A stretch of 32,688 nt of DNA from Thermoproteales archaeon (GTDB taxonomy: Archaea; Thermoproteota; Thermoprotei; Thermofilales; B69-G16): positions 1 to 32,688 of the forward strand of contig JAGGZW010000109.1 in assembly GCA_021161825.1 (NCBI GenBank). The letters are read 5' to 3'. Below, one piece after another: positions 317 to 22,812 of this stretch (position 1 is the first letter of the stretch; every line of letters begins with the position of its first letter). Under the pieces are notes generated by a model that ran no database searches, had not been told where the DNA came from, and worked only from the letters and a program-made list of their open reading frames with translations. The position numbers were made by a program, and so were the translations under genes.

Positions 317-1199
317 AGTTAAAAACAGCCAATGTCCGTACTGTGGAAGTTTCAGGATCATATTTGATGAAATCAGATCTGAGTATGTTTGTTTGGATTG
401 CGGCGCGGTCTTAGAGGATAGGCTGATTGAGTATCATAGGTTTGAAAAACGTATTCACTCGCCGGAAGATTGGAAAAAGCAGAGAGTAGGTCCTAAAATG
501 GATACTAGGATAGATAACCTACAGTCGACGGATATGGGCCTAATACCTTACGCTAAGGGTCTCCATAAGGCCAGTAAATACAGGAGAATAAGAAAGATTC
601 ATCAACGTTACGTTGTCGAAGAAAACAGGAATTTCAATAAAGCAAAAACGGAGATAAGCAGAATATGCGGCAACTTAGGCATATTAGCTGTAAAAAACGA
701 CGCTATATATATCTATAAAAAAGCAGCCGAGAAAAAATTGGTTAGAGGAAGATTAGTTGAGGGAATGGCTGCTGCATGCGTATATGCAGCATGCAAGCTT
801 AAAAAAATAGGAATTACCTTGAATTCTATTGAAAAAGTATCAAAAGTAAACCGGCGCGTAATAACTCGAAATTATAAGATTCTAATAAAAAACAAGGTTG
901 TAAAATTGGAGAGCCTGGATGCGCGTCACTACGTGACTAGAATAGTCGCTGAGCTAAAACTTCCTATAAGCACGGCAAAGATTGCTTTAAAAATAATCGA
1001 TAAAGCTAGAGAAAAGAGGATAGGTATCGGCGCTCGCCCTGAAGGTTTGGCAGCAGCATCGATATACGTGGCTTCAAAAATAACTAATAATCCCAGAACT
1101 CAAAGAGAAATCGCGCAAAGTTCGAATATAACTGAGGTTACCCTTAGAAACCGATATAGGGAAATATTGAAGAAATTGAACATCACTGTTTATATTTGA
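306..1199 (+). CDS. tfb: Transcription initiation factor B (TFB), divergent
   Basis: TFB bridges TBP-bound promoter DNA and RNA polymerase. The 297-residue protein has an N-terminal zinc ribbon (C10-x2-C13, C29-x2-C32), a linker at about 45-100, and two cyclin-like repeats (about 105-200 and 205-297). The repeats show the usual signatures RGRLVEGMAAACVYAACKL and RPEGLAAASIYVASKI. The C-terminal recognition helix (TEVTLRNRYREIL) contacts the BRE in known TFBs. The B-reader/linker reads KKQRVGPKMDTRIDNLQSTDMGL and lacks the EWRAF-type segment usually found there, so this may be a paralogue rather than the main TFB. The ATG overlaps the end of gar1 by 11 nt, implying coupled expression. Confidence 0.92.
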   Translation: MEGEVKNSQCPYCGSFRIIFDEIRSEYVCLDCGAVLEDRLIEYHRFEKRIHSPEDWKKQRVGPKMDTRIDNLQSTDMGLIPYAKGLHKASKYRRIRKIHQRYVVEENRNFNKAKTEISRICGNLGILAVKNDAIYIYKKAAEKKLVRGRLVEGMAAACVYAACKLKKIGITLNSIEKVSKVNRRVITRNYKILIKNKVVKLESLDARHYVTRIVAELKLPISTAKIALKIIDKAREKRIGIGARPEGLAAASIYVASKITNNPRTQREIAQSSNITEVTLRNRYREILKKLNITVYI

Positions 1200-1206
1200 G
1201 CCTCGT

Positions 1207-1248
1207 ACTATAAATTATCAGGTGCATATCTGCACGGAAGCTAGGTGG
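1207..1248 (+). promoter_or_regulatory. TFE-beta promoter with inverted repeat and SD
   Basis: A TATA-like ACTATAAATTA lies at 1207-1217. It is followed by a perfect inverted repeat GTGCA-TATC-TGCAC at 1222-1235 and an SD-like GGTGG at 1244-1248, before the TTG start at 1255. The expected transcription start is near 1238, so the repeat sits between TATA and start, where archaeal repressors commonly bind. Operator function is inferred. Confidence 0.4.
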
Positions 1249-1254
1249 TAGCAA

Positions 1255-1617
1255 TTGAGTAGCGTCCCCGAAGTGCTGGAAAGGAAGCTGTTAAAGTTGT
1301 TGAGCGAAAGCGGAAGCGAGGGAATTCTCCAAAAGGAATTATGGAAAAAACTAAACATTGACAGTCGGAAAGGTATAAAAATTGTTAGAACTCTTGAAAA
1401 GCAAGGGTTGCTTACTAGGCAAGCTATAATACACAGAGGCAGAAAAAGTTATATTGTAAGGCTTGGGCCTAAATACTTCGCAAAGAAAACAATACCTAGG
1501 TATATTTTAAGAATTCCATGCTTTTACTGCGAACTGCTAGATGGTTGCGGAGAGAAGATAAGCATAAATCCGATAAATTGTCCTAAATTAAACGCTTGGC
1601 TTGAGGAGGATCCTTGA
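1255..1617 (+). CDS. Transcription factor E subunit beta (TFE-beta, RPC39/RPC34-like)
   Basis: The 120-residue protein has an N-terminal winged helix (about 8-70: KLLKLLSES, LQKELWKKLNIDSRKGIKIVRTLEKQGLLTR) and a C-terminal four-cysteine site (C89, C92, C98, C109, with the INPINCPKLNAWL ending). This is the layout of archaeal TFE-beta and eukaryotic RPC39, where the cysteines hold a cubane Fe-S cluster. TFE-beta pairs with TFE-alpha to help promoter opening. The start is TTG with GGTGG six bases upstream. The stop codon overlaps the next gene (TGATG), so translation is probably coupled to thpR. TFE-beta is typical of TACK lineages, which helps place the organism. No TFE-alpha gene is seen here. 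Confidence 0.82.
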   Translation: MSSVPEVLERKLLKLLSESGSEGILQKELWKKLNIDSRKGIKIVRTLEKQGLLTRQAIIHRGRKSYIVRLGPKYFAKKTIPRYILRIPCFYCELLDGCGEKISINPINCPKLNAWLEEDP

Positions 1618-2180
1618 TGGAACGGATAAGATGCTTCATTGCTATAGACGTAGAAAACTCTGATATTATAGCGAAAATTAGCAAAGTAATGCAAGCATTG
1701 AATTTTTTTGGTAATAAATTAAAACTAGTAGAAACTGGAAATATTCATCTCACTCTGAGATTTTTAGGGGGATTGCCTAAGTCGATAGTGGATGAGATTA
1801 TTGAAGTTCTAGATACTGTAGATTATCATCCATTCACCATAACTCTTAAAGGTTTAGGAGTATTTCCTACTCCGTCAAGACCGAGAGTTATATGGGTTGG
1901 TATTGAGGAAGGAGTTGAAGATCTTAAAAAGCTAGTAACGCGTATTAATACAGCATTAAGAAGGCTCAGACTTCCCCCTCCGGACAAACCGTTTTCTCCA
2001 CATGTAACAATTGCTAGAGTTAAAAGGCCAGTAGACACGGGTAAGCTAATGCGAATACTAGATGCTCATGCCACGGAGTTTGGACCTATGCTTGTTGATA
2101 GAATTCGTTTAAAGAAAAGTACGTTAACTTCTCGTGGACCGATATACACTACATTATATGAAAAACTGCTATCTGGCTAA
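1617..2180 (+). CDS. thpR: RNA 2',3'-cyclic phosphodiesterase / 2'-5' RNA ligase family protein
   Basis: LigT/ThpR is a 2H phosphoesterase that opens 2',3'-cyclic phosphates; the bacterial enzyme also joins tRNA halves with a 2'-5' bond. The protein is 187 residues, normal for the family. Both catalytic tetrapeptides are present, HLTL (44-47) and HVTI (129-132), in the expected two-lobed arrangement. A TTG three bases upstream is in frame, but ATG at 1617, overlapping the preceding stop as TGATG, is the better start. It lies 4 nt before the CCA-adding enzyme gene, an association seen in other archaea and consistent with tRNA 3'-end or splicing-intermediate metabolism. The natural substrate in archaea is not settled. 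Confidence 0.9.
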   Translation: MERIRCFIAIDVENSDIIAKISKVMQALNFFGNKLKLVETGNIHLTLRFLGGLPKSIVDEIIEVLDTVDYHPFTITLKGLGVFPTPSRPRVIWVGIEEGVEDLKKLVTRINTALRRLRLPPPDKPFSPHVTIARVKRPVDTGKLMRILDAHATEFGPMLVDRIRLKKSTLTSRGPIYTTLYEKLLSG

Positions 2181-2184
2181 CATC

Positions 2185-3600
2185 ATGTACAAGGATTTCT
2201 TAGGTATTCTAGACGAAGTTTTAGGAAGAATCACGCCTACGCCTGAAGAGAGACGTTTTATATCTAAAATAGTTTCTGAAGTTATAACTGCTTTAGAATC
2301 TTTAAAAAGCGATTATAAGATTGATTATAAAGTAGAAATAGTAGGTTCTTACGCGAAAGATACATGGCTTTCTGGCGAGGCCGATATTGATATTTTTCTT
2401 TTGTTTTCTCCAGATTTGCCGCAAGAAAGCCTGGGCTATTACGGATTAACCATAGCAAAAAAAGCAGTTGAAAATTTGGGAGGTAGATGGTTTGAGCGGT
2501 ACGCAACGCATCCATATATTGAGGCTGAAGTTGAGGGTCTTACTGTAGATATAGTTCCAGCTTATGCTGTCGAGACGCCAGATAAAATAATCTCGCCAGT
2601 CGATAGAACGCCATTTCATACAAGATACGTGAAATCACGTATCGATGAAGAGATGAAGTCTCAAATAAGGCTCTTAAAAAAATTCATGAAGGGAATTGGA
2701 GTTTATGGAGCCGAAATTAAAGTTCAAGGTTTTTCCGGCTACCTAGCTGAACTATTGATTATTTATTATGGTTCTTTTATAGAGGTTATAAAAAATGCGT
2801 CCAAATGGAAACCTAGGAAGGTCTTTATAGACCTAGAAAGGTTTTATAGTGAGAGGGAGAGAAAGAAGCTATTAAAAATAATGCCCGGAGCAATGGTTGT
2901 CATAGACCCTGTTGACAAAGCTCGAAACGCGGCTTCTGCACTTTCAATACAGAAGATGTGCGAGTTTGTAGCAGCATCTAAAGCATTTTTCAAAAGCCCA
3001 AGTGTAGAATTCTTTTTTCCACCAAAACCGGAAATAGACCAAAGTAGATTGGAGAATTTGCTGAAATCGCGAGAAACCGATATTCTAGCGATAGTAACCA
3101 TAGTTCCTAAATTGGCGGAAGATATAATATGGGGACAGATCTATAAAAGTCTTGACGGTCTTGAAACTCTATTTAAAAAATATAATTTCAAAGTATTGTC
3201 AAAAGGTGCCTGGTTGTCAAAAAATAATGATTTGGTGATGCTTTACGAGTTTGAAACCGCTAAGTTACCGATAACAGAAAAACACTTAGGGCCTCCTGTG
3301 GGGTCAGAAAATGAAAACGATTTCATTTTCAAGTATGTAAATTCACCTAATACTATAGCAGGACCTTTTATTGAGGGGAGTAGGTGGATAGTATTTCGAA
3401 AAAGAAAATGTACGACTGCAAGTGAGGTAGTTAAAGTTTATTATGAAGAAGCTAGGCTAGGCAAGCATATTTACGAAAGCTTTAACATGAAAATGCAGAT
3501 TCTTCAAAATCAGGATATATTAAAATTAACTAGTATCGATGGTTTTAAGGAATTTCTTAACTCGTGGCTGGTTAAAAAACCTTTTTGGCTAAAGAAATGA
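2185..3600 (+). CDS. cca: CCA tRNA nucleotidyltransferase (class I, archaeal)
   Basis: This enzyme adds or repairs the 3'-terminal CCA of tRNAs using CTP and ATP without a template. The 471-residue length matches archaeal class I enzymes. The nucleotidyltransferase head is clear: GSYAKDTWL (54-62) followed by the metal-binding D67-x-D69, with a third acidic residue in TVDIVPAY. A longer in-frame GTG start at 2134 would lie inside thpR; ATG at 2185, just after the thpR stop, gives a normal N-terminus (FLGILDEVLGRITPT). The gene overlaps the next one by 4 nt (ATGA). The only tRNA gene in this window already encodes CCA, so the enzyme may act there mainly in repair. Confidence 0.95.
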   Translation: MYKDFLGILDEVLGRITPTPEERRFISKIVSEVITALESLKSDYKIDYKVEIVGSYAKDTWLSGEADIDIFLLFSPDLPQESLGYYGLTIAKKAVENLGGRWFERYATHPYIEAEVEGLTVDIVPAYAVETPDKIISPVDRTPFHTRYVKSRIDEEMKSQIRLLKKFMKGIGVYGAEIKVQGFSGYLAELLIIYYGSFIEVIKNASKWKPRKVFIDLERFYSERERKKLLKIMPGAMVVIDPVDKARNAASALSIQKMCEFVAASKAFFKSPSVEFFFPPKPEIDQSRLENLLKSRETDILAIVTIVPKLAEDIIWGQIYKSLDGLETLFKKYNFKVLSKGAWLSKNNDLVMLYEFETAKLPITEKHLGPPVGSENENDFIFKYVNSPNTIAGPFIEGSRWIVFRKRKCTTASEVVKVYYEEARLGKHIYESFNMKMQILQNQDILKLTSIDGFKEFLNSWLVKKPFWLKK

Positions 3601-14901: not shown

Positions 14902-16119
14902 GTGGCGATCAAGGTGACCATGCAAGCCGGCGTGGTGGGAAAACCAAATGTAGGTAAATCAACATTTTTCGCAGCAGCCACTCTTGTAGATGTCAAAATT
15001 GCCCCTTACCCATTTACAACCATAGAAGCAAACAAAGGAGTTGGATACGTTAGAATTGAATGTGTTTGTAAGGAGCTAGGCGTTCAAGATAATCCAGTAA
15101 ATTCTATATGTATAGATGGTTGGCGTTTTGTGCCAGTTGAGCTCATAGACGTGGCAGGTTTGGTTCCTGATGCTTGGCAGGGGAGAGGATTAGGAAATAG
15201 ATTTCTTGACGAATTAAGACGTGCTAATGTGCTGATACATGTTATAGACGCTGCGGGGTCTACTGACATAGAAGGTAGACCAGTAAAAATGGGAAGTCAT
15301 GATCCTCTTGAAGATGTGGCATTTTTAGAGAGAGAAATTACCATGTGGATGTATCAAATAATATCAAAAGACTGGCCTAGAACGGCTAGAAGTTTAGAAG
15401 TTACAGGAGTTAATATTGCGCGGGAACTCCACAAAAAACTTAGCGGCCTCGGGATATCGATTAAACATATTGAAGAAGCATTGCAGGAAACCAACCTTAT
15501 ATCCAAAAAGCCAACGCGATGGTCAGAAAAGGAACTATTAGATTTTGTACATGCTCTAAGGGAAAAATCAAAACCAATAATTATAGCCGCGAACAAAGCA
15601 GATCTTCCCACGGCTGAAGATAATATAAAAAGGCTAAGAAAAGAGTTAGATAAAAATTATGTAATCGTGCCAACCAGCGCTGAATCAGAACTGGCTTTAA
15701 GAAGAGCTGCGTCCAAAAATCTAATTAAGTATCTACCCGGCGATTCTGATTTTGAAATAATCGGAGAATTATCCGATAAGCAGATGAAGGTATTAGATTA
15801 CATAAAGGAGAGAGTGCTGAAGAAATGGGGATCGACGGGGGTTCAGCAAGTAATAAATATAGCATTTTTAGATGTTCTAAAACTTATAGCTGTATTCCCT
15901 GTTGAAAACGAAAACAAGTATACAGATCATCACGGCAGAGTATTACCTGATGTTTTCTTAGTCCCTTATGGAACCACTGCGCGGGAGTTAGCTTATATGA
16001 TACATACGGAGCTCGGAGACAAGTTTATAAGCGCCATAGACGCAAGAACTAGAAAGAGATTAGCTGCAGATTATAAACTTCAACATAGAATGATAGTGAA
16101 GATAGTGGCGGGTAGGTAG
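14902..16119 (+). CDS. YchF/Ygr210-type redox-regulated GTPase/ATPase
   Basis: A 405-residue OBG-family P-loop protein. G1 is GKPNVGKS, near residues 13-20. The switch II region is [18 protein letters not shown]4 is NKAD, and there is a helical insert and a C-terminal TGS domain (about 340-405: [27 protein letters not shown]). The length and divergent N-terminus fit the Ygr210-like subgroup found in archaea and fungi. YchF relatives bind ribosomes and often prefer ATP. The start is GTG at 14902; ATG at 14920 ([14 protein letters not shown]) is also possible. It lies 5 nt before the ECF transporter genes, with which it may be cotranscribed. Confidence 0.88.
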
Positions 16120-16124
16120 CTAAA

Positions 16125-16988
16125 ATGGACTACATTTACCTCAAAGACGTCACATTTACTTATAGAGGTAATAACAAGCCGGCTCTTTTAAAAATAAACC
16201 TGAAAATTAAAGAAGGCGAATTTGTCCTAATTACTGGTCCCTCAGGGTGCGGCAAAAGTACTCTGTGCAGACTTTTAAATGGTCTAATACCACATTTCTA
16301 CAGTGGAGAGCTGAGTGGAGAGGTTAAAGTTCTAGGAATTTCTGTTATTAATACTCCCACGTATGAGCTAGCGAAGTATGTGGGAATGGTTTTTCAAGAT
16401 CCCGAGAATCAGCTGTTTTTGTCAACAGTTGAGAGAGAAATAGCTTTCGGTTTAGAAAACCTTGGATTGCCTGTGAAAGAGATAAAAAAGAGAGTAGAGG
16501 CAGTGATCTCATTTATGGGTTTGGAAAGTATAAGAGATAAAGCTCCATACGAATTGAGTGGTGGACAGCAACAGAAAGTCGCTATAGCTTCTGTGCTAGC
16601 GATGCAACCCAGAATATTAGTTTTGGACGAGCCAACCGCAAATCTTGATCCTTACTCAAGTATGGAATTACTCAATATGATCGCTAGGTTGAATAGAGAG
16701 AGAAAAATGACAATAGTACTTGTTGAGCATCGTCTTGAAGCATTGCTTGACAAAGTTTCACGGTTGATAATCATGAATAATGGAAGGATAATTCTAGATG
16801 GTACACCTAGCAGAGTAATAATTGATAAGAAAGCGAAAATAGTCGGCGTTCCCAAGGTTATAGAAGTATACGAAAAACTAAAAAATTATGGTATCGATTT
16901 TGGTAACCCCCCGTTGTCTCCTGAAGAATTGGTAAATATGATCAAGAGTAGAGTTGGTGCAATTGAGCGAGGTAGTCGTAGAGGTTAA
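16125..16988 (+). CDS. ECF transporter ATP-binding protein (first EcfA)
   Basis: A 287-residue ABC ATPase of the energy-coupling factor (CbiO/EcfA) type. Visible are Walker A GPSGCGKST (38-46), Q-loop FQDPENQLF, signature LSGGQQQ, Walker B LVLDEPT and H-loop VEHR. The NGLIPHFYSGELSGEV segment after Walker A and the QDPENQLF Q-loop are typical of EcfA and not of import or export ABC systems in general. It forms an operon with a second ATPase (overlap of about 30 nt) and EcfT, and presumably heterodimerises with the second ATPase. The substrate cannot be told because no S component is present. Confidence 0.9.
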   Translation: MDYIYLKDVTFTYRGNNKPALLKINLKIKEGEFVLITGPSGCGKSTLCRLLNGLIPHFYSGELSGEVKVLGISVINTPTYELAKYVGMVFQDPENQLFLSTVEREIAFGLENLGLPVKEIKKRVEAVISFMGLESIRDKAPYELSGGQQQKVAIASVLAMQPRILVLDEPTANLDPYSSMELLNMIARLNRERKMTIVLVEHRLEALLDKVSRLIIMNNGRIILDGTPSRVIIDKKAKIVGVPKVIEVYEKLKNYGIDFGNPPLSPEELVNMIKSRVGAIERGSRRG

Positions 16989-17796
16989 AGATCTATTCTT
17001 TTCTTATAATTCCCAGTTTGTGTTAAAAGGAATAAATTTGGAAATTAGAAAAGGCGAAATGATAGCCATATTGGGTGAAAACGGTGCTGGCAAAACAACG
17101 CTTATAAAGCATTTTAATGGACTTTTGAAGCCTTCTAAAGGTTTTGTGAAAGTATTTGGCTTAGATACTAGAAAAGTTAGCGTAGCCCAGCTTGCTAGAA
17201 AGGTAGGGTTGGTTTTCCAGAATCCGGATCATCAACTATTTGCAGAGACTGTAGAAAAGGAGATAGAGTTTGCTCTTAGAAACCTTGGGTTTGAAGAAGA
17301 AGTTATAAAAAGGCGTGTAGACTGGGCACTTAATCTAATGGGTTTAGCTGAGTATAGGAATCGTTCTCCTTTTACGTTAAGTATTGGAGAGAGGAAAAGA
17401 TTGGCAATAGCGTCTGTTTTATGCTATGACCCCGAATTATTGATATTCGATGAGCCTACAGCAGGACAAGACTATTTGCAGAAAGAGCGGATTGCCGAGC
17501 TGCTGAATCTCCTTAAGACGCGAGGAAAAACTGTGATTATTGTTACTCACGATGTTGAATTTGTAGTAACCAGGTTTGAGAGAGTTATAATAATGAGCAG
17601 TGGACAAATAATCGGTGACGGCTCTACAAGAGAGATACTAACAAATTTAAACATTCTTAGTAAAGCTAGGTTACTGCCGCCACAGATAGCGAAATGCGCA
17701 TGGTTGTTGTCAGATCTTAACATACCTAGAGATTTGATATATCCTGAAGAACTGGTGGAGAAACTTAAGGATTTAATCAGTGGTGGACATGAGTAG
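16954..17796 (+). CDS. ECF transporter ATP-binding protein (second EcfA)
   Basis: A 280-residue partner ATPase: Walker A GENGAGKTT, Q-loop FQNPDHQLF, Walker B LLIFDEPTAGQD and H-loop VTHD. The signature is LSIGERKR instead of LSGGQ, so the composite site that uses it may be less active, giving an asymmetric ATPase pair. Candidate starts are TTG 16954, GTG 16957 and TTG 16963; all overlap the previous gene by about 26-35 nt, implying translational coupling. The protein probably couples ATP hydrolysis to EcfT at the membrane. Confidence 0.88.
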   Translation: MVQLSEVVVEVKDLFFSYNSQFVLKGINLEIRKGEMIAILGENGAGKTTLIKHFNGLLKPSKGFVKVFGLDTRKVSVAQLARKVGLVFQNPDHQLFAETVEKEIEFALRNLGFEEEVIKRRVDWALNLMGLAEYRNRSPFTLSIGERKRLAIASVLCYDPELLIFDEPTAGQDYLQKERIAELLNLLKTRGKTVIIVTHDVEFVVTRFERVIIMSSGQIIGDGSTREILTNLNILSKARLLPPQIAKCAWLLSDLNIPRDLIYPEELVEKLKDLISGGHE

Positions 17797-18562
17797 CTTA
17801 TTTGAAGGTTTCAAGTTCAAAAGGAAAAACACGATTATTCACAATCTAGATCCTAGGTCGAAAGCTATTTACTTATTTATCACGTTCGCTTCAGCGCTAA
17901 TATTCGTTGAACCGATTCCATTGTTGATAATATTGTCGACTTCTATTCCTTTAATAGTGCTTGCTAAATCTTTGAGAGAATGGAGTAAAAGTATGAGGGG
18001 GCTACTGCTTTTTATAGCTTTCATTTTTATTCTGAACTTACTTTCTACGCCAGTGAATAGAGTCAACTACGCCGCCTCAATGGTTTTAAGATTTTTAGCG
18101 TTAACATCAGCGTTCTCGGTTTTCTTTTTAACAACCACGCCAGATGATTTTATGGCTGCTCTTGAGAAGCTCGGGCTTCCAAAGGAATATACGCTTATGT
18201 TTACAATGTCTATTCGCTTTGTACCAACGCTAGCGAGAGATCTACAAATAATAATTGATGCTCAAAAAAGTCGAGGATTAGAGCTTGAAAAAGGCAATTT
18301 TATTCAACGTGTAAAAAACTATGTTCCGATACTTATTCCATTGATAATATACGAAATAAGAAGAAGCATAATGATAGCTGAAGCATTAGAAGCGAGAGCA
18401 TTTGGAGCATCTAAAAAAACAACACCTTACATAGTTTTAAAATTCTCGCTCTGGGATTACGTATTCTCGGCGATAGTCTTGCTGTTCTTTGGTCTGCTCA
18501 TAAGTATGAAGTTGTTAAACATGCTGCCCCCTTGGATGAATATAAAGTTACCAGATTTCTAA
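17780..18562 (+). CDS. ecfT: ECF transporter transmembrane protein EcfT
   Basis: A 260-residue membrane protein with an N-terminal NLDPRSKAIYLF motif of the CbiQ/EcfT family, about five to six hydrophobic segments, and the cytoplasmic coupling helices that end in EALEARAFGA, the Ala-Arg-Gly-type signature that docks on the ATPases. The start is uncertain: GTG 17780, GTG 17783 or ATG 17789; all overlap the preceding stop at 17796. It abuts the convergent HTH gene without any spacer. No substrate-binding S protein is adjacent, so the module probably serves one or more S components encoded elsewhere. Confidence 0.9.
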   Translation: MVDMSSLFEGFKFKRKNTIIHNLDPRSKAIYLFITFASALIFVEPIPLLIILSTSIPLIVLAKSLREWSKSMRGLLLFIAFIFILNLLSTPVNRVNYAASMVLRFLALTSAFSVFFLTTTPDDFMAALEKLGLPKEYTLMFTMSIRFVPTLARDLQIIIDAQKSRGLELEKGNFIQRVKNYVPILIPLIIYEIRRSIMIAEALEARAFGASKKTTPYIVLKFSLWDYVFSAIVLLFFGLLISMKLLNMLPPWMNIKLPDF

Positions 18563-19174
18563 TCACGTTTCTTTTCCACGACTTCTAAGGACGGTAAGCC
18601 AGGGATTGCCTTGGACAAAGGAAGGAACTATACTTTCGGTAAAATCACCGTCTTCGATACTGGCTTTTTCCATTTTATCGCCTGTATCCATGTTGGATAT
18701 TGTTATCGTCAGTTTTTCTATGCTTTGAGATAATTTTTCTATTTTTTGCTCAAGTTTGTTTAATGCTTCGATTAAAACCTTATCGTGTATAAACTGTAGA
18801 TTTTGCTGATATGGATAAATTCCAAACATGCTAGATAAAGTTTCTTTAACAACTTTGCGTATTTCTTCCATTAGTGCTTCTTTTAAAAATATACTTTCAG
18901 TAGCTCTCGAATCAAGCAGCGAGCTTTTTTCTGTTTTTCTATTGCTTACACTTTCAGCATTCTCAGATACCGCATCTAAGGTGAGCCCCAGCGCTTTCAG
19001 ATTTAGTCTATATTTATATAATGCCTTGTATACAGTTCTCGGAGATACTCCAAGAGCTTGGGCGATATCCTTAGCTCTTCTTCGTTTCTCTAAGTATGCT
19101 AGAACTATTTTTCTTTCAGTATTAGTCAATTTCACCTTTGGGCCTTCAAGTAATCTGTAAGCGATTTTCGCCAT
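18563..19174 (-). CDS. HTH / coiled-coil protein of unknown function
   Basis: I do not recognise this family. The 203-residue protein has a helix-turn-helix at about 16-58 (LTNTERKIVLAYLEKRRRAKDIAQALGV, then SPRTVYKALYKY), a polar linker, a helix near 95-115, a likely coiled coil at about 130-158 (LIEALNKLEQKIEKLSQSIEKL), and a short tail with NPWLTVLRSR (190-199) that looks like a conserved docking motif. A DNA-binding dimer or oligomer is the obvious inference. Its promoter holds a palindrome and a repeated half-site at the predicted transcription start, suggesting autoregulation. ATG at 19174 has GGTG upstream. It diverges from eS30 and meets ecfT tail to tail. Confidence 0.6.
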   Translation of the reverse strand: MAKIAYRLLEGPKVKLTNTERKIVLAYLEKRRRAKDIAQALGVSPRTVYKALYKYRLNLKALGLTLDAVSENAESVSNRKTEKSSLLDSRATESIFLKEALMEEIRKVVKETLSSMFGIYPYQQNLQFIHDKVLIEALNKLEQKIEKLSQSIEKLTITISNMDTGDKMEKASIEDGDFTESIVPSFVQGNPWLTVLRSRGKET

Positions 19175-19186
19175 CGAATTACACCG

Positions 19187-19230
19187 GATAAATTTATCTA
19201 AGAATTTATCTCAGTACTCCTATAAATCTT
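19187..19230 (-). promoter_or_regulatory. Promoter and candidate operator of the HTH gene
   Basis: On the minus strand a TATA-like AAGATTTATAGG (19219-19230) predicts a start near 19198. The 12-bp perfect palindrome GATAAATTTATC occupies 19187-19198. The half-site AATTTATCT occurs at 19191-19199 and again at 19203-19211, a 12-bp period that places both on similar faces of the helix. The block lies between TATA and start codon, where bound protein would block transcription. Confidence 0.5.
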
Positions 19231-19256
19231 TTAGCGTGTAAATCGTTAATAATGAT

Positions 19257-19268
19257 TCCGCTAGCGGA
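19257..19268. promoter_or_regulatory. 12-bp GC-rich palindrome upstream of eS30
   Basis: TCCGCTAGCGGA is a perfect palindrome in an otherwise AT-rich divergent spacer. It lies just upstream of the eS30 TATA-like element (19277-19288), where archaeal activators bind. Its role is unknown. Confidence 0.35.
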
Positions 19269-20906: not shown

Positions 20907-22812
20907 GGTAAAAATAAGATGCGGTATCGAATTTCATCAAATGCTAAATACCAAAAACAAATTATTCTGCAATTGTCCAACTATATTGAGAAAGGACGAT
21001 CCTGATATTATTTTTAAAAGAAAACTTAGGCCAACAAGGAGCGAACTAGGCGAAGTAGATCCGGCTGCACTATTTGAATTTAAAAAGGGATATACATATG
21101 TATACGAAGCGTATAGCGATACGACATGTCTAGTTGAGATGGATGAGGAACCCCCACATGATCTGAATCATGAAGCTCTCGAAATTTCTCTCATGATAGC
21201 TTTAATGCTTAATTCTAGACCCGTAGACGAAGTATTCGTAATGAGGAAAATAGTCATTGACGGTTCGAACACTACTGGCTTCCAGAGAACAGCTTTGATT
21301 TCAACAGGGGGTCAGATATCGGTTGATGGGAAGACAATTCGCATACAAACCATATGTCTTGAAGAAGATGCAGCAAGAAAAATATCTGAAAATGCCAAGA
21401 CAAAAGAGATAATTTATAGATTAGATAGGCTTGGAATACCCCTCATAGAAATTGTGACTGCTCCCGATATAGAATCTCCCGAAGAAGCTGAAAAGGTAGC
21501 ATATAAAATTGGACAATTACTGCGGATAACGGGTAGAGTAAAGAGGGGGCTTGGAACTATAAGACAGGATCTGAATATCTCAGTTGAAGGGGGAGCGAGG
21601 GTCGAAATTAAAGGAGTTCAGAAAATCGAGTTAATCAAGCTGGTAATAGCTAATGAAATTCAGAGGCAATTAAACCTATTAAAAATCAGGGACGAGTTAG
21701 AGAAAAGAGGGTTAAAGTTGGAGGAAATAAGAAATGAATTTGTAGACGTTACTGAAGTTTTCACCAATACGAGCTCGAAAATGATTAAAAAGGCTTTAAG
21801 CCGCGGTGGTAAAGTATTAGCTTTAAAGCTACCTAAATTCAAGGGCTTAATCGGGAGAGAAATACAGCCTGGTAGAAGATTGGGAACAGAATTCGCAGAT
21901 AGGGCTAGATACTGGGGGGGCGTGGGAGGAATAATACATAGCGATGAACTACCTGGGTATGGAATTGGAGAATCTACTGTGCAAAGAATTAGAGAAATAT
22001 TGAATTGCAAGGATTTAGACGCTTTTGTAATAGTTGCTGATAGCAAAGATAAATGTATAGCTGCCTTAGAAGCTGTTGCTGAAAGAGCTCGAGAAGCAGT
22101 AGAAGGAGTGCCTAACGAAACCAGAGCAGCAAACCCGGATGGTACGACTAGATATTCTAGACCTATGCCTGGTAAAGCTAGAATGTACCCGGAAACGGAT
22201 ATTCGACCAATTAGACTGTCTCCAGAGTTTTTGGATAAAGTGAGAAGAAATTTACCTGAGATGCCGGAGCAAAAACTGGATAAATTTATCCGTATCTATG
22301 GACTCAATGAAACTTTAGCTAAACAAATGCTCAATTCTTATCACCTAGACATTTTCGAGTATATTGTAGAGAAAATTGGCGTTTCGGCAACCCTTGTAGC
22401 TAATACCCTCGAAAATATAATGAAAAGTTTAAGACGTGAAGGTTATCCTATCGAAAACATAAAAGATGAAAAAATAATAGAACTGTTTAAACACATAAAA
22501 TCTGAGAATATAGCTAAGGAAGCAATACCTGAGATACTTGCATTTCTATCTCAGAATCCTGATGCAAGTATTGAAGAAGCTTTAGACAAGCTGGGTTTAA
22601 GAGGATTAAGTCCAGAGGAGTTAGAAAAAATAGTAGAGGAGGTGCTTCAGAATAATAAACAGTTAATTGCCAGCAAAGGAGAAAGAGCTATGGGAGCGAT
22701 AATGGGCGATGTTATGAAGATTGTGAGAGGGAAGATCGACGGTAGAACCGTGAGTGAAGTTGTTAGGGTAAAATTAAAATCGTTTTTGGATGATATTGAA
22801 GCTACTTCCTAA
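20893..22812 (+). CDS. gatE: Glutamyl-tRNA(Gln) amidotransferase subunit E
   Basis: GatE is the tRNA-binding, kinase-like subunit of archaeal GatDE. The 639-residue protein opens with KIRCGIEFHQMLNTKNKLFCNC, the GatB/GatE cradle motif. Later come GLGTIRQDLNISVEGGARVEIKGVQ, an AspRS-like insert (about 270-410) that distinguishes GatE from GatB, TRYSRPMPGKARMYPETDI, and a C-terminal helical YqeY-like domain. ATG at 20893 is chosen because GGAGG lies nine bases before it. A further upstream ATG at 20863 lies deeper within gatD. The 3' end overlaps convergent SRP19 by 11 nt. Confidence 0.97.
   Translation: MEGRRVKIRCGIEFHQMLNTKNKLFCNCPTILRKDDPDIIFKRKLRPTRSELGEVDPAALFEFKKGYTYVYEAYSDTTCLVEMDEEPPHDLNHEALEISLMIALMLNSRPVDEVFVMRKIVIDGSNTTGFQRTALISTGGQISVDGKTIRIQTICLEEDAARKISENAKTKEIIYRLDRLGIPLIEIVTAPDIESPEEAEKVAYKIGQLLRITGRVKRGLGTIRQDLNISVEGGARVEIKGVQKIELIKLVIANEIQRQLNLLKIRDELEKRGLKLEEIRNEFVDVTEVFTNTSSKMIKKALSRGGKVLALKLPKFKGLIGREIQPGRRLGTEFADRARYWGGVGGIIHSDELPGYGIGESTVQRIREILNCKDLDAFVIVADSKDKCIAALEAVAERAREAVEGVPNETRAANPDGTTRYSRPMPGKARMYPETDIRPIRLSPEFLDKVRRNLPEMPEQKLDKFIRIYGLNETLAKQMLNSYHLDIFEYIVEKIGVSATLVANTLENIMKSLRREGYPIENIKDEKIIELFKHIKSENIAKEAIPEILAFLSQNPDASIEEALDKLGLRGLSPEELEKIVEEVLQNNKQLIASKGERAMGAIMGDVMKIVRGKIDGRTVSEVVRVKLKSFLDDIEATS

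Follow-up and report, generated by a model that had tools for sequence, protein, structure and literature searches.

The DNA at 18563-19230 encodes a protein that couples a helix-turn-helix (HTH) domain to a coiled coil and a short C-terminal motif, and it raises the question of whether that motif docks on a partner protein, and on which, or whether the gene simply encodes a repressor that controls its own promoter. The window, i.e., the whole 32,688-nt stretch analyzed, is contig C109 of a Thermoproteales archaeon whose genome (G000) comprises 1.67 Mb in 132 contigs. The gene, the parts of its product and its neighbors are as follows:

14902-16119, plus strand: YchF-like GTPase, a neighbor of the HTH gene
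16125-16988 and 16954-17796, plus strand: two ECF-type ATPases, neighbors of the HTH gene
17780-18562, plus strand: EcfT-like protein, a neighbor of the HTH gene
18563-19174, minus strand: 203-aa ORF with HTH, coiled coil and crenactin-type docking tail, one row of a 38-row alignment (A5)
18575-18628, minus strand: C-terminal tail VPSFVQGNPWLTVLRSRG, residues 183-200, a homologue of the tail by which arcadin-2 binds crenactin
18683-18910, minus strand: helices of residues 89-117 and 130-164 in an AlphaFold2 model, taken as a coiled coil
18989-19135, minus strand: HTH DNA-binding domain, residues 14-62, of the sigma-70 region 4/HTH_23 type by Pfam and AlphaFold2

The names YchF-like, ECF-type and EcfT-like were assigned from the translations and are presumed here. 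The HTH gene is convergent to the EcfT-like gene and the two abut. It shares a fetched stretch with YchF and/or ECF genes in 10 of the 13 loci examined by tblastn, which supports the orthology of the HTH genes. Pfam recognized the N-terminal domain as HTH_23 (E 1.8e-6; 28.1 bits against a cut-off of 24.6) and HTH_28 (E 8.7e-6; 26.2 bits against a cut-off of 25), and an AlphaFold2 model built on the 38-row alignment (mean pLDDT 79.3) placed its three helices at residues 18-30, 34-41 and 45-62. A Foldseek search with the HTH model returned sigma region 4, GerE-type and KorA domains among its top rows, with none at E ≤ 0.001. The coiled coil and tail matched no Pfam or NCBIfam family above its cut-off. 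In the model, the tail forms a separate helix (residues 191-200; block pLDDT 84) that follows a low-confidence linker. The earlier note had thus read the protein correctly in its HTH, its coiled coil and its NPWLTVLRSR end, which occupies residues 190-199; the span that it gave, 18563-19230, comprises the gene and 56 bp of promoter.

A search with the window protein gave matches in 52 of the 61 related genomes and none in the other nine, namely G002, G017, G022, G023, G029, G032, G035, G038 and G040, among which G002 (80% complete) belongs to the same genus as the window. ORFs were taken from 39 loci by the HTH motif TVYK[AV], and 38 loci yielded one; the remaining locus (L009) misses the HTH pattern yet terminates in DNPWLEVLKSRK. 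All 38 HTH proteins, the window's included, carry an N-x-W-[VLIM]-x-[VIL]-[VIL] tail within their last 40 residues, so that the C-terminal motif is conserved among orthologues. Fourteen of the 38 had been retrieved through a match limited to residues 2-82, which makes their tails non-circular; the tails of L076, L077, L081 and L083 are circular, since these were retrieved by tail search, and the remaining HTH matches spanned most of the protein. Twelve alignment columns are invariant, nine in the HTH (T19, E20, A38, T47, V48, Y49, K50, A51 and R56) and three in the tail (P184, N190 and W192). HTH proteins of the Thermoproteaceae, which we take family f9 to be (f3 being taken as Thermofilaceae), end in NVWISIIRNKAT, NIWISLLRSKAV or NVWISLLRSRAT, with NEW, NVW or NIW where others have NPW; the Pyrobaculum calidifontis orthologue ends in NVWISIIRNKAT.

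A tail of this kind has a characterized counterpart in arcadin-2. The last 17 residues of arcadin-2 are reported to occupy a hydrophobic groove of crenactin, with a Kd of 31 nM for arcadin-2 (Izore 2016, PMC5173319), and the complex of the P. calidifontis peptide R187-R203 with crenactin is PDB entry 5LY3 (PMC5173319). The same report places ParR in the equivalent groove of ParM (PMC5173319), and it describes depolymerization of crenactin filaments in vitro by arcadin-2 and by its tail peptide (PMC5173319, section 7). Within a filament, the crenactin groove is occupied by the D-loop that the next subunit contributes. When named genomes were scanned with a narrower tail alignment rich in arcadin-2-type rows (A2), 44 loci were found, consisting of 38 of the REase-like (arcadin-2) type, three of the HTH type and three others; the labels "REase-like" and "actin" in these loci (L120-L163) were given first by eye and later checked. 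In 35 of the 38 loci, the arcadin-2-type gene has an archaeal actin gene as its same-strand neighbor: a full frame in 34 (abutting or overlapping that of the tail in 27 and within 36 nt of it in 7) and a contig-edge fragment in one (L148). The three loci without an adjoining actin (L130, L132, L140) are from Calditenuaceae. The arcadin-2-type gene and crenactin are far apart or on different contigs in G140, G041, G046, G052, G055 and G059. In the window genome, crenactin lies at G000:C113:35291-36559 (E 2.8e-213 with the crenactin profile; E 1.7e-110 against the PDB crenactin entries 4cj7, 5ly3 and 5mw1) and is abutted by the genome's own arcadin-2 orthologue (L226 3543-4265, minus strand).

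Because the adjoining actin is crenactin, the tail gene beside it is arcadin-2, and the core profile match agrees: in hhalign, eight Thermoproteaceae arcadin-2 sequences matched 21 other arcadin-2-type sequences over the core (99%, E 2.8e-18). The HTH family aligned with those 21 non-Thermoproteaceae sequences in the tail alone (98.5%, E 2.2e-15), and its tail aligned with the C-terminus RGGIGENEWVKILRSKR of the eight Thermoproteaceae sequences (69.5%, E 4.2e-5). The gene after crenactin in G031 (L220) ends in RGGIGENEWVKILRSKR, 17 residues that run from R to R. G031 is taken to be P. calidifontis, and to judge by its letters this C-terminus fits the 5LY3 peptide R187-R203. The P. calidifontis arcadin-2 peptide alone matched an HTH-tail profile weakly (E 1.2, with 5,761 ORFs searched), so the link between the HTH tail and arcadin-2 is drawn from orthologues, profiles and gene order. 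The tail profile gave two PDB matches (E 0.54 and 0.84) that were taken as chance; the library searched omits chains of fewer than 20 residues and hence the 17-residue arcadin-2 peptide. Full-length P. calidifontis arcadin-2 returned four cytochrome rows from the PDB, all at E ≥ 0.3. The earlier note's proposal of a docking motif for a partner protein, by comparison with segregation factors, is thus well supported: the tail is present in all 38 proteins and is homologous to one that binds crenactin.

The window protein and arcadin-2 (P. calidifontis WP_011850311.1, arcade cluster) share a post-linker tail, N-x-W-[VL]-x-[VI]-L-R-S-[RK], that is predicted to be helical in both. Their likeness ends there: the window protein has an HTH, whereas arcadin-2 has a predicted PD-(D/E)XK-like core, and the window gene sits beside YchF and ECF genes on C109, whereas arcadin-2 mostly adjoins crenactin. 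By core and by gene order, then, the window protein is not arcadin-2. The AlphaFold2 model of the window-genome arcadin-2 core has the look of a PD-(D/E)XK nuclease; its top Foldseek row was XisH (E 1.5e-3), EndoMS and a Holliday resolvase were also returned, and no row reached E ≤ 0.001. On the strength of this model, arcadin-2 itself might contact DNA. In G061, an arcadin-2-type tail with H in place of the conserved N (YLKDHPWVEVLRKR) adjoins crenactin (L234 3565-4344, minus strand).

Weak matches of the window-protein search exposed further proteins that share the tail but have other N-termini. Ten of these were scanned against Pfam, and three had a DNA-binding type domain over the cut-off, namely a ribbon-helix-helix (RHH) in L115 (RHH_1, E 4e-9) and a C2H2 finger in two proteins (E 4.8e-6 and 1e-6). 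Sub-threshold matches among the ten were MazE/AbrB-like (E 0.0065), CopG-like (E 0.0015) and MerR-like, and the remaining proteins had either an arcadin-2 core or no meaningful Pfam match. Tail-positive genomes of the class carry one to five tail matches on differing N-terminal domains. Thermofilum pendens has five: one protein carries two of these in tandem, and another lies on plasmid pTPEN01. The tandem tails, LPSFARDNPWLRILSS and LPSFARDNPWLDFLSRR, belong to an arcadin-2 (L101, G009:C2, ORF 1038-1796, minus strand) that could possibly bind two crenactin subunits. The plasmid protein (pTPEN01 NC_008696.1, L252, 8668-9066; TPEN_RS09445/WP_011751374.1), annotated as a "hypothetical protein", is among those with no meaningful Pfam match; its tail scored E 1 in the plasmid search and was accepted because the tail profile recovers this position (in G009:C1) with an E-value of 2.5e-9. 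From its sequence, this protein is a candidate plasmid partition adaptor. The window genome has three tail matches, in the HTH gene, in a 252-aa frame on C113 and in a small frame on C79; a fourth (E 1.79, 32-aa frame) was discarded as chance. The C79 match (G000:C79:22300-22350; L230 ~3130-3363) is a frame of ~80 aa that has a good tail but no ATG start, situated by eye among ribosomal-protein genes. Viral contigs gave seven pattern matches to the tail, none of them confirmed, and phage records gave none at E ≤ 10 with a 21-aa query, which is a weak test.

Taken together, we consider it likely that the window protein is an adaptor from DNA to crenactin that resembles ParR in principle. The HTH is predicted to bind DNA and the coiled coil to oligomerize, which would yield an oligomer with two or more tails. 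The flexible linker would display an amphipathic C-terminal helix, N-P-W-L-x-V-L-x-x-R, that, from its homology, would bind crenactin, with the tail tryptophan entering the hydrophobic groove as the arcadin-2 tail and the D-loop of the filament do. A DNA-bound tail would reach free crenactin monomers or the terminal subunit that a filament exposes, and only these, because the D-loop fills the groove within filaments. Chromosomal DNA would thereby be coupled to the crenactin cytoskeleton, much as plasmid DNA is coupled to ParM through ParR, and the hub in the window genome would be the crenactin of C113, beside the arcadin-2 orthologue. The location of the HTH gene on C109, outside the crenactin operon on C113, speaks against such an adaptor.

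Three models of what the adaptor does are workable: ParR-like tethering of filament ends in segregation, local depolymerization as in nucleoid occlusion, and a regulator that senses free crenactin. We lean, tentatively, toward segregation or nucleoid anchoring as the most likely cellular purpose, because arcadin-2 has been reported between segregated nucleoids (PMC5840170 and PMC9723716, both citing Ettema 2011) and because a protein with the tail is borne on a plasmid. More tentatively still, crenactin may be a DNA-moving or nucleoid-organizing actin with chromosomal and plasmid ParR-like adaptors, in which HTH, RHH, zinc finger, AbrB-like domains and possibly the arcadin-2 core are each fused to an arcadin-2-type tail; the window protein, matched in 52 of 61 related genomes, would then be one of this set.

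By analogy with the arcadin-2 tail, which depolymerizes filaments in vitro, a DNA-bound tail might dismantle filaments rather than pull on them. SlmA acts on FtsZ in nucleoid occlusion, and a DNA-bound protein that sequesters or caps crenactin near the nucleoid would similarly confine the formation or survival of filaments to regions away from DNA. The depolymerizing activity of arcadin-2 and its peptide (PMC5173319) is consistent with this possibility, as is the reported placement of arcadin-2 between segregated nucleoids (PMC5840170, PMC9723716), and one to five tails per class genome on different N-termini could spread over the nucleoid. The tail on a plasmid protein, however, suits tethering equally or better, and we regard occlusion as unlikely.

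Somewhat less probable is a transcription factor that senses actin, in which a crenactin monomer on the tail would alter the regulation of target genes, as G-actin regulates MRTF via RPEL motifs. The HTH is of the transcription-factor type, and the tail would be expected on monomers, as is that of arcadin-2 (PMC5173319). Against this, no operator proved to be conserved, the candidate self-operator included (see below), and a single dedicated sensor would less readily account for a tail common to several unrelated N-terminal domains.

The co-occurrence of tail and crenactin was also examined, and 397 genomes of the phylum were scored with a tail profile (A1, E ≤ 1e-3) and a crenactin profile (A3, E ≤ 1e-20); the A1 seed was chosen by a pattern containing N-x-W, so that invariance within A1 is partly built in. 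The tail was found in 88 genomes and crenactin in 100, with crenactin in 85 of the 88 tail-positive genomes and in 15 of the 309 tail-negative ones (Fisher's test, 1.4e-66, shared ancestry uncorrected). The tail-positive genomes without a crenactin match were G020 (90% complete), G241 (98% complete) and G380; the G380 match, an 18-aa frame, is taken as spurious. In G241, neither crenactin nor histone was matched, and the contig with the tail is suggested to be misbinned or a mobile element. That 5.9-kb contig (G241:C4; L239, L168) holds an 86-aa tail frame, VLPDFVTGNPWISVIRGRG, beside what appears by eye to be an AAA-type ATPase. The 15 tail-negative genomes with crenactin were 12 Thermoproteaceae plus G139, G194 and G233. 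The crenactin loci of eight of the 12 and of G139 and G194 all proved to have an N-x-W tail missed by A1 (10 of 10), and the crenactin of G233 is cut by a contig edge. Among 48 genomes at least 85% complete, 42 have both the HTH protein and crenactin, one (G020) has the HTH protein only, one (G017) has crenactin only and four have neither; as these four belong to two families, the independent losses are few.

Convergence offers another account of the tail, in which it docks on a chromatin protein or other nucleoid factor rather than on crenactin and came to resemble the arcadin-2 tail independently. Within a class set of 44 genomes, histone did occur in 26 of the 29 genomes with a tail match at E ≤ 1e-4 and in none of the 15 others; this pattern, however, arises because A1 is insensitive to the tails of the Thermoproteaceae, whose HTH proteins and arcadin-2 carry the tail after all. 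Across the 397 genomes histone discriminates poorly, being present in 82 of the 88 tail-positive and 197 of the 309 tail-negative genomes (Fisher's test, 1.1e-8, shared ancestry uncorrected), whereas crenactin discriminates well, and histone was rejected as the docking partner on these grounds. Histones of 18 tail-positive and 20 tail-negative genomes, compared by eye, had no obvious tail-specific surface. ScpA was absent from all 44 class genomes and present in 9 of 14 control genomes, and SMC-ScpAB was rejected as the tail's partner. With histone and ScpA as the other partners surveyed, we regard one different from crenactin as quite improbable.

The upstream region bears on the remaining alternative, and contains the following features:

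19187-19198: perfect palindrome GATAAATTTATC in the 5' region of the HTH gene, at chance level and not conserved
19191-19214: two tandem 12-bp near-repeats, AATTTATCTAAG and AATTTATCTCAG
19220-19232, minus strand: AAAAGATTTATAG, a candidate BRE/TATA element for the HTH gene, identified by eye

The earlier note had placed a perfect 12-bp palindrome at the predicted start; the palindrome is perfect and of that length, but it lies upstream of the ATG (19174), at a distance of 13-24 nt. The repeat described with it is present, as AATTTATCT at 19191 and again 12 bp away at 19203. The BRE/TATA candidate was judged against the archaeal consensus, and a similar sequence, AAAGTTTTATA, is found upstream of the same-genus orthologue L002. 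Perfect 12-bp palindromes number 12 in the window, against 12.5 ± 3.8 expected under a first-order Markov model, and an intergenic stretch of like length and composition would hold at least one in 10.6% of cases. A second copy of GATAAATTTATC lies at 22279, within a coding ORF. Yet another perfect 12-bp palindrome, TCCGCTAGCGGA, occurs at 19257-19268, in the same intergenic stretch, which separates the HTH gene from an S30e-like ORF (~19328). Upstream regions were scored for the palindrome at 38 loci including the window, L009 having given no ORF, and with at most one mismatch it was absent from all 37 orthologous regions and present in the window's own alone. The nearest matches among the orthologues (L013 and L083) had two mismatches each, a level also reached by 51 of 2000 random windows of 120 nt, and the best match at L002 had four mismatches. 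As the palindrome count is at chance level and the sequence is not conserved, a self-operator is unsupported and was rejected, and the earlier proposal of an oligomeric autoregulator is likewise unsupported. Absence of the repeats upstream of orthologues is one of the two outcomes that the earlier note had named as refuting, the other being no binding to this DNA.

The tandem repeats were also sought at three other HTH loci, and a tandem 12-bp pair was found only in L247 (G004), with none so spaced in L248 or in L243, which is of the same genus as the window. The L247 pair, TTATCTTCTCTA and TTTTCTTCTCTA, is at 3364-3387, ~400 bp upstream of the HTH gene; its spacing is that of the window pair but its sequence is different, and it is possibly due to chance, as two-copy repeat families often arise in this way. 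The four loci scanned (the window, L243, L247 and L248) revealed no conserved centromere-like array. An ordinary autoregulated HTH repressor, with the palindrome as its operator and the tail as a structural detail, would account for the palindrome and the direct repeat in the promoter but is highly improbable given that such palindromes occur at chance level, that the second copy is in coding sequence, that none lies upstream of 37 of 37 orthologues and that the tail residues are no less invariant than those of the HTH.

We return, then, to the window protein as an adaptor between DNA and crenactin. Its N-terminal domain resembles sigma-70 region 4, HTH_23 and HTH_28 in fold and sequence class. 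As a DNA-associated protein predicted to bind a cytoskeletal subunit, it is comparable to SlmA and to MRTF with its RPEL motifs, whose folds and partners differ from its own. The closer parallel is ParR, which likewise joins a DNA-binding domain to a C-terminal tail and whose tail is reported to enter the hydrophobic pocket of an actin-like protein (PMC5016525, PMC5173319), as the sequence of the window protein suggests that its own would. ParR differs in being an RHH protein, whereas the window protein is an HTH protein by Pfam and AlphaFold2, and in sharing an operon with its actin and a tandem-repeat centromere, whereas the window gene is chromosomal and on a contig other than that of crenactin. 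The window protein is thus not ParR by fold or operon, but by analogy it would work like ParR. In the passages of open-access papers that were covered, we found no published description of a DNA-binding HTH partner of crenactin.

As a conserved protein that is predicted to bind DNA and ends in a crenactin-type tail, the window protein would add DNA to the partners of crenactin, and the tail provides a searchable signature for more of them. Existing P. calidifontis materials, namely crenactin, the arcadin-2 peptide and crystals (PMC5173319), make the question testable. If the adaptor reading is true, archaea would possess, in this HTH protein and crenactin, a counterpart of ParR-ParM that acts on chromosomes through a groove shared with the regulators of eukaryotic actin, and the pair could show how heat-loving archaea handle their chromosomes.
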